DNA of 38,570 nucleotides from an uncultured bacterium (GTDB lineage: Bacteria > Cyanobacteriota > Vampirovibrionia > Gastranaerophilales > Gastranaerophilaceae), in assembly GCA_949285255.1 (NCBI GenBank), contig CASDXV010000018.1:1-38570 (forward strand). Reading direction: 5' to 3'. The notes beneath the pieces are model-generated. The model had not been told where the DNA came from. It did not search any database and worked only from the letters and a program-made list of their open reading frames with translations. Shown here in pieces: positions 2,607-12,436 of this stretch (position 1 is its first letter; the number at the start of each line of letters is the position of its first letter). The position numbers were made by a program, and so were the translations under genes.

Positions 2607-3533
2607 ATGGCAATTTCAGTAAACACAAACATCCCATCGTTAATTGCCCAAAACAGCCTTAACAAATCACTAAGTGCAATGGAAAAGGCTATGCAACAAC
2701 TTACAACGGGCTTAAGAATTAACAATGCCGGTGACGATGCGGCAGGACTTGTAATTTCAGAAAACATGAAAGTACAAATCAACGGTTCAAACAAAGCAAT
2801 GGACAACATCCAAGATGCACAAAACTTTGCAGCAGTAGCTGAAGGAGGTATGATTTCAATAGGTGACCACCTCCAAAGAATCAACGAATTGTTAATTCAA
2901 GGTGCAAACGACACAAACAGCACAGAGTCAAGAAAAGCAATTCTTGTTGAAGTAAAACAAAGACTTGAAGACATCAACGTAATTGCTCAATCAACTCAAT
3001 TCAACGGAAGAACAATGCTTGACGGTTCATTTGACCCAAATGACCCGGATAAACAATTCATTGTTCAAATCGGACCTTACTCAGACACTCAAAACGCAGA
3101 TGACCCGCTAAATACTCTGGACATCTCAGGAGCATTCACAGATTGTCACCTATCCACCCTTGGCATAGGCACAACTACTGACAGTGGTACATATGATGGT
3201 ATTCAGCTTCCTGCTGAACTTGACCCGGATGACCCTGCTTTTGACCCTACAGGGGACACTTTTAGAAACTATATGGATACAATTCAGGCAGCCGTCGGAA
3301 ATGTAACTGATGCAAGAGGTCTTTTGGGCGGGTATCTAAACAGAATGACATCGACTTATGACAACTTAACCATAACAGTTGAAAACCTAACTAACGCTAA
3401 AGGCAGAATTACAGATACAGATGTAGCTGAAGCAAGCTCTGAAATGATTAAACAGCAAATACTTGAACAAGTTTCAGGCTCTATGCTAACTCAAGCTAAC
3501 CAAATCCCATCTCTAGCTTTAAGCTTAATATAA
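2607..3533 (+). CDS. fliC: Flagellin, short form
   Basis: The 308-aa protein is the filament subunit, exported by the flagellar type III system without a Sec signal. The N-terminal D0/D1 helices (1-140) contain NTNIPSLIAQNSLNKSL, LTTGLRINNAGDDAAGL and FNGRTMLDGS. The C-terminal D1/D0 (about 225-308) contains DTDVAEASSEMIKQQIL and SMLTQANQIPSLALSLI. The middle is only about 85 residues, rich in Asp-Pro (DPNDPD, DDPLNT, DPDDPAFDPTGD), with one Cys near 171, so the outer D2/D3 domains are essentially absent. An AGGAG site lies 5 nt before the ATG. The gene has its own terminator. No other flagellar gene is in the window, which is common for flagellin loci. Confidence 0.95.
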   Translation: MAISVNTNIPSLIAQNSLNKSLSAMEKAMQQLTTGLRINNAGDDAAGLVISENMKVQINGSNKAMDNIQDAQNFAAVAEGGMISIGDHLQRINELLIQGANDTNSTESRKAILVEVKQRLEDINVIAQSTQFNGRTMLDGSFDPNDPDKQFIVQIGPYSDTQNADDPLNTLDISGAFTDCHLSTLGIGTTTDSGTYDGIQLPAELDPDDPAFDPTGDTFRNYMDTIQAAVGNVTDARGLLGGYLNRMTSTYDNLTITVENLTNAKGRITDTDVAEASSEMIKQQILEQVSGSMLTQANQIPSLALSLI

Positions 3534-6651: not shown

Positions 6652-6671
6652 TATAAAGTATATACTTTATA
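6652..6671. promoter_or_regulatory. 20-bp perfect palindrome upstream of the hydrolase pair
   Basis: TATAAAGTATATACTTTATA reads identically on both strands and ends 19 bp before the transglycosylase ATG, in the divergent region shared with rubrerythrin. It could be an operator, or AT-rich promoter DNA whose symmetry is accidental. A similar but imperfect ATATATAAAGTATATCTC occurs near 280-297. Confidence 0.35.
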
Positions 6672-6690: not shown

Positions 6691-7650
6691 ATGTCAGTAA
6701 ATAAACCTGAATTATTGAATATCGTATCGAACAACGCAAATGCTACTACCCAGCAAACAAGTACAAACAACAATAACCAAGCGCAAAGCGCAACAGAGCA
6801 GAGTGAAGATGAGTATATGAGCCTTGATTTGAGCTCTATGGGAGTAGATGAACTTGGCACATTGCTTGAACAAAACCAAAAAAGCCAAGAGGAGCTATTA
6901 AAAGAACAATACGAAATTACTATAGCACAGATTCAAATGGAACTTGAAGAAGCAAGAAGAGAAAGAAACTCACTAAACCAAGAAATTCAAAACGCTGCAC
7001 TTAGTGAAGAAGGTGTTGATTCAAGTAATGCCTTTTCTCAAATAAGTGAAATTAATTCAAAAATAAGCAAACTAAATAATGAGCTCTTAAGTACCGTAAC
7101 ACAGTTCCAGATAGATATGCAAAAACTTGCAATTCAAGCACAACAAAGCGCACTTGAACTTCAATCGCTTGCAGCCGGTGTAGCAAGTACGGGCGGTTTA
7201 ACAACAACTAATGCAAGTAACACAACAACTTCAGGTAAAATAACATCAAATCTTGACGGTTCAACGGCACAAATTGATGCTTTAATTGAAAAATACGCTA
7301 ATGAAGCAGGACTAGACCCCAACTTTGTAAAAGCGGTAGTCAAGGCAGAATCAAGCTTTAACCCTAATGCGACATCATCATGCGGAGCACAAGGCCTAAT
7401 GCAATTAATGCCGTCAACTGCAAAAAGTTTAGGTGTAACAAACGCCTATGACCCTGAACAAAACATAAAAGGCGGAGTAAAATACCTTAAGCAAATGTAT
7501 GAAAAATTCGGAAGCTATGATTTAGCCCTTGCGGCATATAATGCAGGCCCCGGCGCAGTTCAAAAATACGGAGGTATCCCCCCGTATAGTGAAACACAAA
7601 ACTACGTTAAGAAAATAAATCAATATTGGAGCGAATACAAAAACGCTTAA
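6691..7650 (+). CDS. Lytic transglycosylase (SLT domain) with N-terminal coiled coil, no Sec signal
   Basis: In this 319-aa protein, residues 1-42 are Asn/Gln/Thr/Ser-rich and probably disordered. 55-160 is a heptad-rich coiled coil, and 165-190 a Thr/Ser linker. From 193 there is a Slt-type lysozyme-like domain: IDALIEKYANEAGLDP, catalytic E220 in VVKAESSFNP, GLMQLMP (235-241) and AAYNAGPGAV (281-290). Such enzymes cleave the MurNAc-GlcNAc bond to form 1,6-anhydroMurNAc. No signal peptide, lipobox or membrane segment is visible, so export through the flagellar or another dedicated route is likely, as for FlgJ/SltF-like rod-clearing enzymes; this is inference. It is followed after 48 bp by a second hydrolase of the same layout, with GGAAAG before that start. 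Confidence 0.88.
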   Translation: MSVNKPELLNIVSNNANATTQQTSTNNNNQAQSATEQSEDEYMSLDLSSMGVDELGTLLEQNQKSQEELLKEQYEITIAQIQMELEEARRERNSLNQEIQNAALSEEGVDSSNAFSQISEINSKISKLNNELLSTVTQFQIDMQKLAIQAQQSALELQSLAAGVASTGGLTTTNASNTTTSGKITSNLDGSTAQIDALIEKYANEAGLDPNFVKAVVKAESSFNPNATSSCGAQGLMQLMPSTAKSLGVTNAYDPEQNIKGGVKYLKQMYEKFGSYDLALAAYNAGPGAVQKYGGIPPYSETQNYVKKINQYWSEYKNA

Positions 7651-7698
7651 ACTAAAGAAAATTGAACAATTGCCGATAATTATAAAAAAGGAAAGAAA

Positions 7699-8574
7699 AT
7701 GTCAATAAATTCTATTAATCCAAACGACCCGTTATACGGTCTGCAAGCCACAGGAGCAACAAGTACTCAACAAAGCAGCACAAGTGCAAGTTCTATAGCA
7801 GGAGCAAGCAGTGAAGATGCGCTGCAGTCAATTGATTTAGGTACTGATTCATTTTCCCTTGATGCTCTTAAAAAGGCTCAAGAGCACAAAGAAATAATGA
7901 AAAAGCTCCAACAAGAGCTTGACTCAATAAGACAACAAAAACAAAGCTTAATATCACAACTTGCTTTTGCTCAAGATGATGAAGACAGAAGCTCTATAAA
8001 TTCTGAAATAAAAGAATTAAACAAACAGTCTGACTCTGTTTATATGGATATCATTAAGGAGATGCAAAATTACAACAACACCCTTAGTGAGTTAATTTCA
8101 GGAACAGTAAAACAACAGGTTGAAAACACTTCTACAATACAAGGAATACAAAGTTTAACAAGTTCTGCCAATACAATACAAGCCTCGCTTGACGGCTACA
8201 ACGCTCAAGCAGGACAAAAAATTGCTCAATCCGCCCTAACTGTTGACGGCACAACGGGCTGGTGTTTAAAAGGCGTTAATGATTCGCTTCAAAGAATTTA
8301 TGGCAGAAGATTGTCATACAATAGCGCGTATCAAGCCATACCGGAACTGCAAAGCGGTCAGGGCATGGGTGCATATTTTAGAGAAGTAAGCGTCTCAAGA
8401 GATGAACTCTCCTCACTTCCTGCAGGAGCTATAGTTGTTTGGGAACCAAACGCAGGAAATGAACACGGACACATATCAATAGCCCTTGGTGACGGCAGAG
8501 AATCAAGCGACCATATAACATCGCAAATGACAGGGCGTGACGCCAATTTCCACGTGTTTATTCCTATTGCATAA
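7699..8574 (+). CDS. CHAP/NlpC-P60-like cysteine amidase or peptidase with N-terminal coiled coil, no Sec signal
   Basis: In this 291-aa protein, residues 1-45 are Ser/Thr/Gln-rich, followed by DLGTDSFSLDALKK and a coiled coil at about 56-140 with high Gln/Lys/Glu content. 145-180 is a polar linker. The C-terminal part has TTGWCLKGVNDSL with probable nucleophile C189, LPAGAIVVWEP (240-250) and GHISIALGDG with H258, the order and spacing of CHAP domains that cut peptidoglycan peptides or the amide link. The layout mirrors the upstream transglycosylase (leader, IDLG/LDLS segment, coiled coil, linker, enzyme), suggesting a pair that cuts glycan and peptide together. Assignment to CHAP rather than another papain-like family is moderate. 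Its last 11 bp overlap the converging cyclo-ligase gene. Confidence 0.72.
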   Translation: MSINSINPNDPLYGLQATGATSTQQSSTSASSIAGASSEDALQSIDLGTDSFSLDALKKAQEHKEIMKKLQQELDSIRQQKQSLISQLAFAQDDEDRSSINSEIKELNKQSDSVYMDIIKEMQNYNNTLSELISGTVKQQVENTSTIQGIQSLTSSANTIQASLDGYNAQAGQKIAQSALTVDGTTGWCLKGVNDSLQRIYGRRLSYNSAYQAIPELQSGQGMGAYFREVSVSRDELSSLPAGAIVVWEPNAGNEHGHISIALGDGRESSDHITSQMTGRDANFHVFIPIA

Positions 8575-9130
8575 CACTATTTTCGCAAACTAAAATATCA
8601 CAAGCGATATCAAACTTATCGCTTGGTAACTTTTGGCATACAAATTTTTCGCTTATAGGGACAATTTTTTTCGCTCTTAAATTTTTGTTTGATAAAAATC
8701 TGTCATAATATCCGCAGCCGTAACCGAGTCGATAAAAGTTTTTATCCGCGCAAAGAGCGGGTACAAAGATTAAATCTAAAACAGATAAATCTTCAATAGG
8801 ATTTGACTCTGGCTCTAAAATAGAATACTTATTGACGCTAAATTTGTCACAGTGCGGGCAGACAAGGAGGTTTTTGCCCTCGCATTTTGGAAAATAAAAA
8901 TTTTTATCCTCACAACTTAACAAGTCCAAAAGATTTATTTCTTCTTTTAGAGGATAAAAAAGCATGATATTTTTTGCATTTTTAAAAAAATCTGTTTTTA
9001 AGATGTTATCAACAATGGCTTTTGAAATCTGCCTCAGCTCATTTTTTAAAAAAAACTCATGTCTTAAATTTTTACAATATTTTCTTAAAGAGTCTTTATT
9101 TTGCGTGATGTTTGATGGGAACTGTTGCAT
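8564..9130 (-). CDS. 5-formyltetrahydrofolate cyclo-ligase
   Basis: This 188-aa enzyme (MTHFS/YgfA family) converts 5-formyl-THF to 5,10-methenyl-THF with ATP in the cytoplasm. Evidence is the N-terminal KDSLRKYCKNLR block, FYPLKEEINLLDLL, FPKCEGKNL, DLIFVPALCADKNFYRLGYGCGYYDRFL with the family glycine/tyrosine loop GYGxGYYDR, and the expected length. The ATG at 9130 has no Shine-Dalgarno and lies inside the preceding small ORF (9093-9257), so translation is probably coupled to it. Tail-to-tail overlap of 11 bp with the CHAP-like gene. Confidence 0.88.
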   Translation of the reverse strand: MQQFPSNITQNKDSLRKYCKNLRHEFFLKNELRQISKAIVDNILKTDFFKNAKNIMLFYPLKEEINLLDLLSCEDKNFYFPKCEGKNLLVCPHCDKFSVNKYSILEPESNPIEDLSVLDLIFVPALCADKNFYRLGYGCGYYDRFLSNKNLRAKKIVPISEKFVCQKLPSDKFDIACDILVCENSVMQ

Positions 9131-10993: not shown

Positions 10994-12436
10994 ATGGTTG
11001 ATAAAATAAGTCCGCAGACTCTTGTACAAACAAATACACAACCTGTGTACTCAAAATACCTGAGTACACCTTCATCTAATGCTCAGCAAAAAAATGATAC
11101 AATAGAAATCACCCCTAAAGTACAAGAGCAACCCACTACTCAAGAGCAGCCGCAAGAAAACCAAAAAAAGAGTAAAAAAGCTCTAATTGCAAGCTTATCC
11201 CTTGGTATAGCAGGTGCTGCAACTGTACTTGGTGTACTTACAAATACACGCGGCTGGAACAAAAAAGTTGCAAAAATTTTAAAAGAAAACTTTAAAGACG
11301 GCGATGAAATTTTTAACCTTACCAAGCTAAAAGAAACCATTCAAGCAAGCGCAAAAGATAAAAGAGTAATTAAACTCAGTAACTTTATGAACAATATGGC
11401 AAACTTTAAGGACTGCTATATTCTCCCTGTCCTTGAGAAAATCCCCGGAGTTAAACAATTTGCAAGAAAAACATCCGATATCTACAAACAAACGGGTGTT
11501 AAAATGACACAAGGCGCATATAAACATGCCAATAATGCCTACAGTGCATTTGATAGTAAGATTAAAAAAACCCTTGACTTACTGGATAATAATGAAACAA
11601 GAGAACAAATTGAAAAATTAATACAAAAAAGAAATGAAATTATAAAAAAACGCTTTACTCCTAACTCTGTCCAAAAATTTGTAGACGGCGTTGAATCAGG
11701 CAGAATAACAGATATAGAAAAAATTATGGATAACGTCGGTAACGGCAAAGGAATATGCAGAACCGTAAGAAGCAAGTTTAATAAACTTATAAAAGGCGCA
11801 GTAAAAAGCAAAGGCAAAGATGTAGACGGTTTTGGCAGTTTTATTGCAGAAGATTTAATTAAAACTCAAAAAGAAGATTTCATTTCTCCTCTAAAAAATG
11901 CTAAAAATCAAATAAATGAACTTGATAAACAAATTCTTGAAATACTTGAAAATACTTGCGGAGAAGAATATCTGCTAAAACATTCTAAAAACATGGCAAA
12001 ATCAAGAAGTGATGCTGCTCGAGCATTAAATAATGCCATAAGAACCGAAGCAAATGATTTGTTTGACAAAATGCGTGACGTTAAAATAGGCAGCGCGCCG
12101 ACAGATATTCTTGGAATGGCGGGTACAGCTGGGCTTATGGGAGTGTACCTTGCGCAAGCGGAAGATAAACACCAAAGAGTAGAGGTAGCCCTTACAACAG
12201 GCGTTCCTTTAGGTTTAGGTATGATAGCAACAACTTTTGCAACCATGAAAATGTATGCGGGAATGAAATCTCTGGCGTTTGGTGCGATAACAACACTAAT
12301 TGCAAATACAATAGGAAAAGTTATAAATAATAAATATCAAAAAGCAAATAATGTCGAACATAAAGACCCTGAAATACCGACTCTCGATAAGTTTACCAAA
12401 GACCTTAATGACAAATTAAAAGCGCCCATCAGCTAA
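10994..12436 (+). CDS. Multi-spanning membrane protein of unknown function, long polar N terminus
   Basis: I do not recognise this 480-aa protein. Residues 1-62 are polar and Gln/Thr/Pro-rich (probably disordered, no signal peptide), then a hydrophobic segment at 63-82 and a long charged, mostly helical region (85-365) rich in Lys/Asn with RTPNS-like KRFTPNSVQKFVDGVESGR. Three hydrophobic segments follow at 372-389, 398-417 and 426-444, then a charged tail. The codon use matches the neighbours. A GAAGG site precedes the ATG. The Ser/Gln-rich, signal-less N terminus recalls those of the two wall hydrolases nearby, but no sequence match is claimed. The stop codon lies in the loop of the terminator at 12418-12453. 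Confidence 0.7.
   Translation: MVDKISPQTLVQTNTQPVYSKYLSTPSSNAQQKNDTIEITPKVQEQPTTQEQPQENQKKSKKALIASLSLGIAGAATVLGVLTNTRGWNKKVAKILKENFKDGDEIFNLTKLKETIQASAKDKRVIKLSNFMNNMANFKDCYILPVLEKIPGVKQFARKTSDIYKQTGVKMTQGAYKHANNAYSAFDSKIKKTLDLLDNNETREQIEKLIQKRNEIIKKRFTPNSVQKFVDGVESGRITDIEKIMDNVGNGKGICRTVRSKFNKLIKGAVKSKGKDVDGFGSFIAEDLIKTQKEDFISPLKNAKNQINELDKQILEILENTCGEEYLLKHSKNMAKSRSDAARALNNAIRTEANDLFDKMRDVKIGSAPTDILGMAGTAGLMGVYLAQAEDKHQRVEVALTTGVPLGLGMIATTFATMKMYAGMKSLAFGAITTLIANTIGKVINNKYQKANNVEHKDPEIPTLDKFTKDLNDKLKAPIS

Follow-up and report, generated by a model that had tools for sequence, protein, structure and literature searches.

Two adjacent predicted wall-hydrolase genes with a homologous, exchangeable leader and no Sec signal in a Gastranaerophilales genome, and a candidate route of export

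The gene pair and its two enzymes

The stretch of DNA analysed here (the window) is a contig of 38,570 bases, C18 of the 43-contig, 1,599,233-base assembly of an uncultured bacterium (genome G000) of the Gastranaerophilales, an order of non-photosynthetic relatives of the Cyanobacteria. On its forward strand, two adjacent genes separated by 48 bases encode predicted peptidoglycan hydrolases. Gene 1 (6691-7650, +; 319 residues) codes for an N-terminal leader followed by an SLT lytic transglycosylase, and gene 2 (7699-8574, +; 291 residues) for a leader followed by a Tae3-like Cys/His amidase or peptidase. An earlier note, drawn up from the letters of the window, had placed both genes exactly at these coordinates and in these frames.

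When the gene 1 product was compared with Pfam, the SLT family was matched over residues 198-303 (7282-7599, +) with an E-value of 9.1e-33 and 112.7 bits, for a cut-off of 21.3 bits. This bears out the Slt-type transglycosylase that had been read there, with E220 (codon 7348-7350) located in the catalytic motif ESSFNPNATSSCGAQGLMQLMP; the sequence relatives of the enzyme part in the PDB are SLT domains as well. The AlphaFold2 model of gene 1 was built from 3 rows only and is poor in the enzyme part. Full-length relatives were found in two other genomes of the genus, G147 (92%) and G155 (60%), and the complete SLT protein is present in 3 of the 15 genus genomes, G000 included, some of the 15 being incomplete.

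The gene 2 product had been described as CHAP-like, with C189 and H258 as its catalytic residues. Both residues, together with D271, are invariant in all 44 rows of the alignment. The CHAP label was replaced by Tae3-like, because the protein scored 13.9 bits (E 0.08) against a Pfam CHAP criterion of 26 bits and because both its profile and its fold match Tae3. With a 25-row profile, the best PDB sequence match was 4hz9, the Tae3-Tai3 complex of Ralstonia pickettii (E 5.4e-4); a second, 33-row profile again gave 4hz9 as the best match, more weakly (E 0.0085), and the single gene 2 sequence did not find 4hz9 in the PDB up to an E-value of 1. In the AlphaFold2 model, the ten-residue mean of the predicted local distance difference test (pLDDT) is 84-95 over residues 171-290. 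Foldseek superimposed this model on 4hz9 with an E-value of 2.2e-5 and a template modelling (TM) score of 0.75 by target length, and the matches at E ≤0.001 were three Tae3 chains and nothing else. On this model, the domain at residues 165-291 (8191-8571, +; C189 at 8263-8265, H258 at 8470-8472, D271 at 8509-8511) is predicted to adopt a Tae3-type fold, with the Cys and His aligned.

The closest named relatives of the enzyme domain belong to Gastranaerophilales metagenome assemblies, with 99% identity in locus L091, and the family differs between genomes in copy number and in N-terminus. The best 29 Tae3-like matches within the order were read by eye. Long relatives (about 530-740 residues; L009, L010, L013, L014, L094-L098) carry the Tae3-like enzyme behind long coiled coils, and several of them show, by reading, EF-hand-like DxDGNG-type segments. 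A second match of gene 2 in its own genome (L008, E 0.003) was set aside, as it reads as an unrelated ATPase-like protein.

The shared leader and its setting

In residues 2-45, serine, threonine, asparagine and glutamine make up 57% of the gene 1 product and 50% of the gene 2 product. These are the first and second ranks among 128 distinct open reading frames (ORFs) of at least 150 residues, taken from the window and eight stretches of the same genome, which agrees with the Ser/Thr/Gln/Asn-rich leader of about 45 residues seen earlier on both proteins. The tails so composed, residues 1-45 of gene 1 (6691-6825, +) and 1-52 of gene 2 (7699-7854, +), are predicted to be disordered, the pLDDT being below 50. 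The coiled coil that had been recognised behind them takes the form of a helical hairpin in both AlphaFold2 models. In gene 1, it spans residues 52-165 (6844-7185, +), with helices at 52-104 and 112-165 and a ten-residue mean pLDDT of 67-94 over residues 51-160; in gene 2, it spans residues 54-143 (7858-8127, +), with helices at 54-90 and 94-143, the pLDDT falling below 50 from residue 137 on. The segment SEDEYMSLDLSS stands directly before the gene 1 hairpin, and the motif E-[DN]-x-[LY]-x-x-[LIF]-[DE]-[LI] recurs in this position.

By pairwise BLAST, the two leaders resemble each other weakly (E 0.005). When they were compared as profiles by hhalign (five rows for gene 1, including the genes of G153 and G154 described below, and four for gene 2), the match rose to 96.5-96.8% with an E-value of 1e-9. 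Six controls, namely FliH, flagellin, one window protein and three coiled-coil regions, of which two came from the longer gene 2 relatives, gave 0.05-6.3%. The N-terminal part which the earlier note had seen as common to both proteins is thus homologous by profile. A third protein of the same layout, whose enzyme scores above the Pfam CHAP cut-off (37.6 bits), is encoded on contig C4 (L006/L072); its leader profile (6 rows) matched gene 1 at 97.1-97.9% and gene 2 at 72-85%. For a gene pair of another genome, at L110, the leader gave 91-95% with gene 2 and with the third family, and 5% or 92% with gene 1 depending on the direction of the comparison. By reading, similar signal-less N-termini precede different Cys/His enzymes at L110 (5422-7484, +) and at L108/L109 (L108 2581-6935, +).

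A 17-row leader profile found three proteins in G000, all of them rows of the profile and all predicted wall hydrolases; this genome-wide search gave no fourth bearer. In the congeners G153 and G154, a single gene at the same locus combines a gene 1-type leader with the gene 2 enzyme, and L093 has a lone gene 2-type protein there. Because of the profile homology, the natural swap in G153 and G154 and the lack of a fourth bearer, the view that the leader is a separate, exchangeable module is well supported by the sequences compared.

Two other identities were considered and rejected. The hairpin shape invites comparison with WXG100/LXG-type secretion, but the Pfam matches, taken up to E 0.1, include no family of that kind. 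A place in a defence system was checked with PADLOC, which left gene 1 unmatched and matched gene 2 and the third protein only weakly, in their helical parts.

N-terminal hydropathy was taken as the 11-residue maximum within the first 40 residues, for all ATG, GTG and TTG starts up to 40 codons in. Its peak was 0.46 for gene 1 and 0.44 for gene 2, against 2.3-3.2 for eight proteins of the same genome picked as Sec-type controls; no start gives either protein a signal peptide, and the earlier note had held that neither has one. The check also covered 84 ORFs of relatives at 80 named loci (L091-L170), some of them shortened at contig ends (e.g. L099, L169), and 81 of these have no N-terminal hydrophobic segment. 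A hydropathy of at least 1.9 was reached by L125, L138 and L140 (next highest, 1.85), whose records bear the names uncultured bacterium, Sericytochromatia and Myxococcales. Sec-like copies were absent among the loci named Eremiobacterota or UBP9, and in the Sericytochromatia genome a copy with a Sec-like start (L138) coexists with one that has none (L155). A further copy, on a viral contig (L233), is lipoprotein-like by reading. As far as these N-termini tell, the same enzyme appears to be Sec-exported in some lineages and signal-less in the Gastranaerophilales and Eremiobacterota. Since relatives elsewhere appear to be sent out by Sec, the Tae3-like domain probably works outside the cytoplasm. 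The absence of a Sec signal and the predicted disordered, polar N-terminus give both proteins of the pair the trait of type III substrates.

Signal-less polar N-termini were also seen in several other proteins (L069 1613-2914, L071 8228-9664, L081 3033-6692, L108 6965-10355 and window 10994-12436), some of which have, by reading, later hydrophobic stretches or NFTG/SFAG/NFGS-like motifs near the start. These proteins may be further cargo of a route other than Sec. The one in the window (10994-12436, +) ties for third of the 128 ORFs in serine, threonine, asparagine and glutamine content and is syntenic with the pair.

The pair is flanked by rubrerythrin and 5-formyltetrahydrofolate cyclo-ligase genes, both on the opposite strand. 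The flagellin gene which the earlier note had placed nearby was recognised by Pfam at 2607-3533, 3.2 kb upstream, and G147, G155, G153 and L093 keep the same order of flagellin, the pair (or the one gene that stands for it) and two more genes. Before gene 1, an A+T-rich palindrome, AAAGTATATACTTT (6655-6668), is a possible operator; in the footprint alignment, TATATACTTT is retained in 5 of the 6 upstream regions compared. A sigma-70 scan gave 4 sites, below the 6.7 expected from shuffled sequences, and terminator-like stems numbered 8 against 2.3 in shuffles, one of them (8601-8625) directly 3' of gene 2.

A second set of type III export genes

The genome G000 contains two sets of type III export genes. 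FHIPEP (FlhA) was found in 146/146 genomes of the order, in two full-length score classes; FlhA1 and FlhA2 were assigned from the best E-values among the matches listed, and, for flagellated genomes, the direct reading of FlhA2 extended to the matches so listed. In G000, FlhA1 is part of a flagellar fliPQR-flhB-flhA cluster on contig C21, and FlhA2 lies on C11 after genes for an SLT protein, a FliE-like protein, FliF, an ORF and FliH. Contig C3 carries FliP2, FliQ2, FliR2, a FliO-like ORF and a SpoA protein (SpoA2); FlhB2 is on C13 and FliI2 on C1. The genes of this second apparatus occupy L068 12146-18762 (-), L082 15481-18194 (-), L207 2204-3505 (-), L213 and L217. The second set is complete for FlhA, FlhB, FliP, FliQ, FliR, FliF, FliH and FliI. 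The assignments of FlhA, FlhB, FliF, FliH, FliI and FliP have a Pfam or NCBIfam basis, and those of FliQ, FliR and FliE were made by position and reading only.

The operon with FliE, FliF, FliH and FlhA2 recurs in G001 and G135, which have one FlhB and one FliI above cut-off and a full-length FlhA of the second class only. Among the matches listed, FlhA1 appears in 52 genomes and is missing from 94, of which 92 have the second class. G045 and G122 have FlhA fragments only; for G009 (nine Flg_bbr_C matches) and G020 (66% complete), it may be that the organism is flagellated and only its assembly lacks FlhA1. With the classes so drawn, Flg_bbr_C gave 5-8 matches in 50/52 FlhA1 genomes and 0-3 in 92/94 of the others (2 in 74). 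Where an FlhA1-less genome has 0-3, the matches listed are frames of 148-163 residues; therefore, short rod-type genes may accompany the second apparatus. The Tae3-like family (gene 2 query, E ≤1e-5) is present in 23/52 genomes with FlhA1 and in 62/94 of the others, again by classes from the matches listed.

FlhA2 is 39% identical to FlhA1. Among G000, G001 and G135, identity is 77-83% for FlhA2 (80-83% when G000 is compared with the other two), 77-86% for FliI2 and 69-77% for FlhB2; a core conserved to this degree speaks more for a functioning machine than for a decaying one. In the FlhA tree, the Gastranaerophilales FlhA2 form a single tight clade on a long stem (6 rows, 100/100); only this clade was used, as the tree retains L183, L185 and probably L199, where the longest ORF of the locus is not FlhA. 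FlhA2 and FliF2 score closer to flagellar than to injectisome models, below both curated cut-offs.

The flagella sets called partial in earlier papers appear to include genes of the second apparatus. Di Rienzi et al. (2013; PMC3787301) give two flhA among the flagellum-related genes of ACD20 and describe MEL.A1 as having no filament, cap or ring genes, read as possible ongoing genome reduction; Soo et al. (2014; PMC4040986) report complete flagella sets in 3/9 genomes and a subset in the remainder. In a termite-gut paper (PMC5877343), earlier genomes are given partial flagella and pili gene sets, secretion systems are searched with TXSScan, and flagella and type IV pili are described. No paper on type III secretion in the Gastranaerophilales, Melainabacteria or Eremiobacterota, or on a secretion system in the Vampirovibrionia, was found from titles and the beginnings of abstracts, with partial coverage.

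The cytoplasmic domain of FlhA (about residues 310-655 of FHIPEP) also occurs on its own, at L082 8642-10090 (+; contig C3 of G000) and L081 8725-10203 (-); such a lone domain is present in G000 and G001 but absent from G135. In six genomes to which Eremiobacterota-type or unnamed loci led (G159, G164, G166, G168, G169, G170), FHIPEP has 10-19 matches per genome, mostly to the cytoplasmic part alone. These free copies are puzzling, because the cytoplasmic part of FlhA is the platform for substrates and chaperones.

Export route, alternatives and known systems

We propose that the pair would be a two-gene unit of peptidoglycan hydrolases, in which the SLT domain of gene 1 would cut the glycan backbone and the Cys/His/Asp enzyme of gene 2 the stem peptide or cross-link. 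The exchangeable N-terminal module, about 45-50 disordered residues and an antiparallel hairpin, would replace a Sec signal: the tail may act as a type III-type signal that is not cleaved off, and the hairpin may serve for docking, chaperone binding or autoinhibition. The route would be the second apparatus (FlhA2, FlhB2, FliPQR2, FliEFH2, FliI2, SpoA2 and its own SLT) and not the flagellum. To this explanation as a whole, a wall-hydrolase pair exported by a type III leader with the second apparatus preferred over the flagellum, we give an even chance.

Type III export seems the most likely route because the genome's own substrates rank high in the same composition measure: of the 128 ORFs, flagellin and a FlgK-like protein are 6th-8th and FlgG is 9th-10th (FlgK-like and FlgG being named by reading), and the third leader protein is 5th. 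The second type III set is the best candidate machine. It gives a concrete form to the earlier suggestion of another secretion machine, but its genes are not closely linked to the pair; the sole, loose link was found in G001, where 5.4 kb separate two genes of the enzyme family from the relative of the C11 SLT. As for the export or docking module that had been suggested, its separateness stood, through homology, swap and its presence on three wall hydrolases, and its part in export is what we infer.

Several results weigh against this explanation. Across the 80 homologue loci (848 kb), none of the type III queries taken from G000 matched, except SLT domains, and some 260 kb separate FlhA2 from the family genes in G001. 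FHIPEP was present in 20/20 genomes reached from 22/80 loci, including the three with Sec-type copies, so that the co-occurrence of FlhA and the enzyme does not discriminate. The composition measure is a weak predictor, since a TPR-like protein and other non-substrates rank equally well, and another FlgG-like ORF of the rod type falls outside the top 14. No chaperone-like gene was recognised among the neighbours of the pair, and the matches of a hairpin-only Foldseek search were not significant. Within the second apparatus, identity among G000, G001 and G135 falls to 34-64% for FliF2, FliE2, FliH2 and the adjoining ORF. Furthermore, the leader subtype is narrow. Among the 146 order genomes, the 17-row profile matched strongly in 3 (G000, G091 and G115) and weakly and partially in 4 more; G000 and G091 had contributed rows, and the G115 match (7e-9), absent from the rows, is again on a Tae3-like protein and as such speaks for the explanation. 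As a single query, the gene 1 leader found no other genome among the 146 at E 0.001. It is signal-less N-termini on the Tae3-like enzyme that are widespread, and not this leader. Finally, the best phage-profile matches of gene 1 reach across its hairpin.

A bolder form of the type III explanation, which we put forward only tentatively, is that a hookless, filamentless type III machine across the order exports leader-marked hydrolases onto neighbours or the adjoining wall, with the Tae3-like amidases as its foremost cargo; on the type III side, such cargo would correspond to the wall-cutting effectors of type VI systems.

Attack on other cells is a possible role of the pair. In its full form, with the Tae3-like amidase and the transglycosylase delivered to rival bacteria and type III taking the place of type VI, it seems to us unlikely. 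The nearest solved relative of gene 2 is a type VI effector, and copy number and N-terminus vary between genomes as they do in effector sets. However, no Tai3-type immunity gene was found among the neighbouring ORFs on both strands, the flanking genes being those for rubrerythrin and the cyclo-ligase, and the three Sec-exported-looking copies would equally suit an enzyme that acts on its own cell or is simply secreted. No injection parts were identified, though no search was aimed at a secretin, needle or translocon.

We hold it just as improbable that the two proteins are cytoplasmic lysins without export, which would accumulate, be freed by cell lysis and act on siblings or as a public good. 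They have no signal peptide, lipobox or hydrophobic N-terminus, no secretion gene is closely linked, and phage profiles are matched: the SLT domain of gene 1 matches endolysin and tail profiles down to 3.5e-39, and gene 2 (0.0017) and the third protein (1.6e-5) match endolysin profiles weakly. On the other hand, release by lysis does not require leaders that are shared and swapped between enzymes, relatives elsewhere have Sec signals, and a Pfam scan of 18 window proteins found no phage or holin family. The earlier note had allowed that the homologues might prove to be prophage lysins only. This fails for gene 2, for which a phage endolysin was rejected (0 matches in 50,697 phage records; 3 loci by a pattern scan of viral contigs); for gene 1 a phage lysin is rejected less directly, as no phage family accompanies it in those 18 proteins and its SLT does match phage profiles.

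Flagellar rod or hook export, which the earlier note had named as a candidate, is not favoured and appears quite improbable: the pair would leave through the genome's own flagellar type III apparatus and open the wall for flagella in the manner of FlgJ, for which the upstream flagellin gene with its conserved order, the flagellar export set and an N-terminal composition like that of flagellar substrates can be cited, but a dedicated signal-less SLT already adjoins flgG, 12/15 genus genomes (some incomplete) have no full SLT protein, and G091, with FlhA1 and five Flg_bbr_C matches, has neither this protein nor a Tae3-like match. The pair seems dispensable for flagellated congeners, given this distribution and the case of G091, and it does not show the FlgJ-type pattern of a place in or beside the rod operon with retention in flagellated relatives. 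A promoter common to the pair and flagellin was rejected, the upstream regions having no clear shared motif in the footprint comparison. For the Tae3-like family as a whole, the flagellum as sole route is ruled out by the 62 of 94 genomes without FlhA1 among the matches listed.

Should the leader prove to be an export module, other proteins shipped by this unstudied machine of common gut bacteria could be traced by it, and it could serve as an exchangeable tag for which nature supplies the controls. Should the second apparatus be what its genes suggest, the 'incomplete' flagella sets of non-motile Melainabacteria would be a working secretion system, order-wide, and not remnants. Two fields of secretion research would be connected if wall-cutting enzymes of the Tae kind left by type III export.

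Among known systems, Tae3 of Ralstonia pickettii (4hz9/4hzb) has the same fold as the gene 2 model, with the Cys, the GH motif and the SD motif aligned, but is about 20% identical, and gene 2 is fused behind a tail and hairpin and has no adjacent immunity gene. The signal-less SLTs beside flgG (C15) and FliE2 (C11) resemble gene 1 in their SLT domain (65% and 60% identical) and in an N-terminal hydropathy below threshold (0.95 and 1.43); they differ in having no homologous leader and in lying inside export operons, gene 1 being outside. HrpH and HopP1 of Pseudomonas syringae are transglycosylases tied to a type III system and linked to the injectisome; we know of no paired amidase with a homologous leader in their case. 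In hydrolases of the PcsB, RipC and Cg1735 type, a coiled coil is likewise joined to a wall hydrolase (Foldseek matches weak and non-significant). Those enzymes are Sec-exported and FtsEX-controlled. G000 also encodes, separately, an EnvC-like protein whose start is Sec-like.

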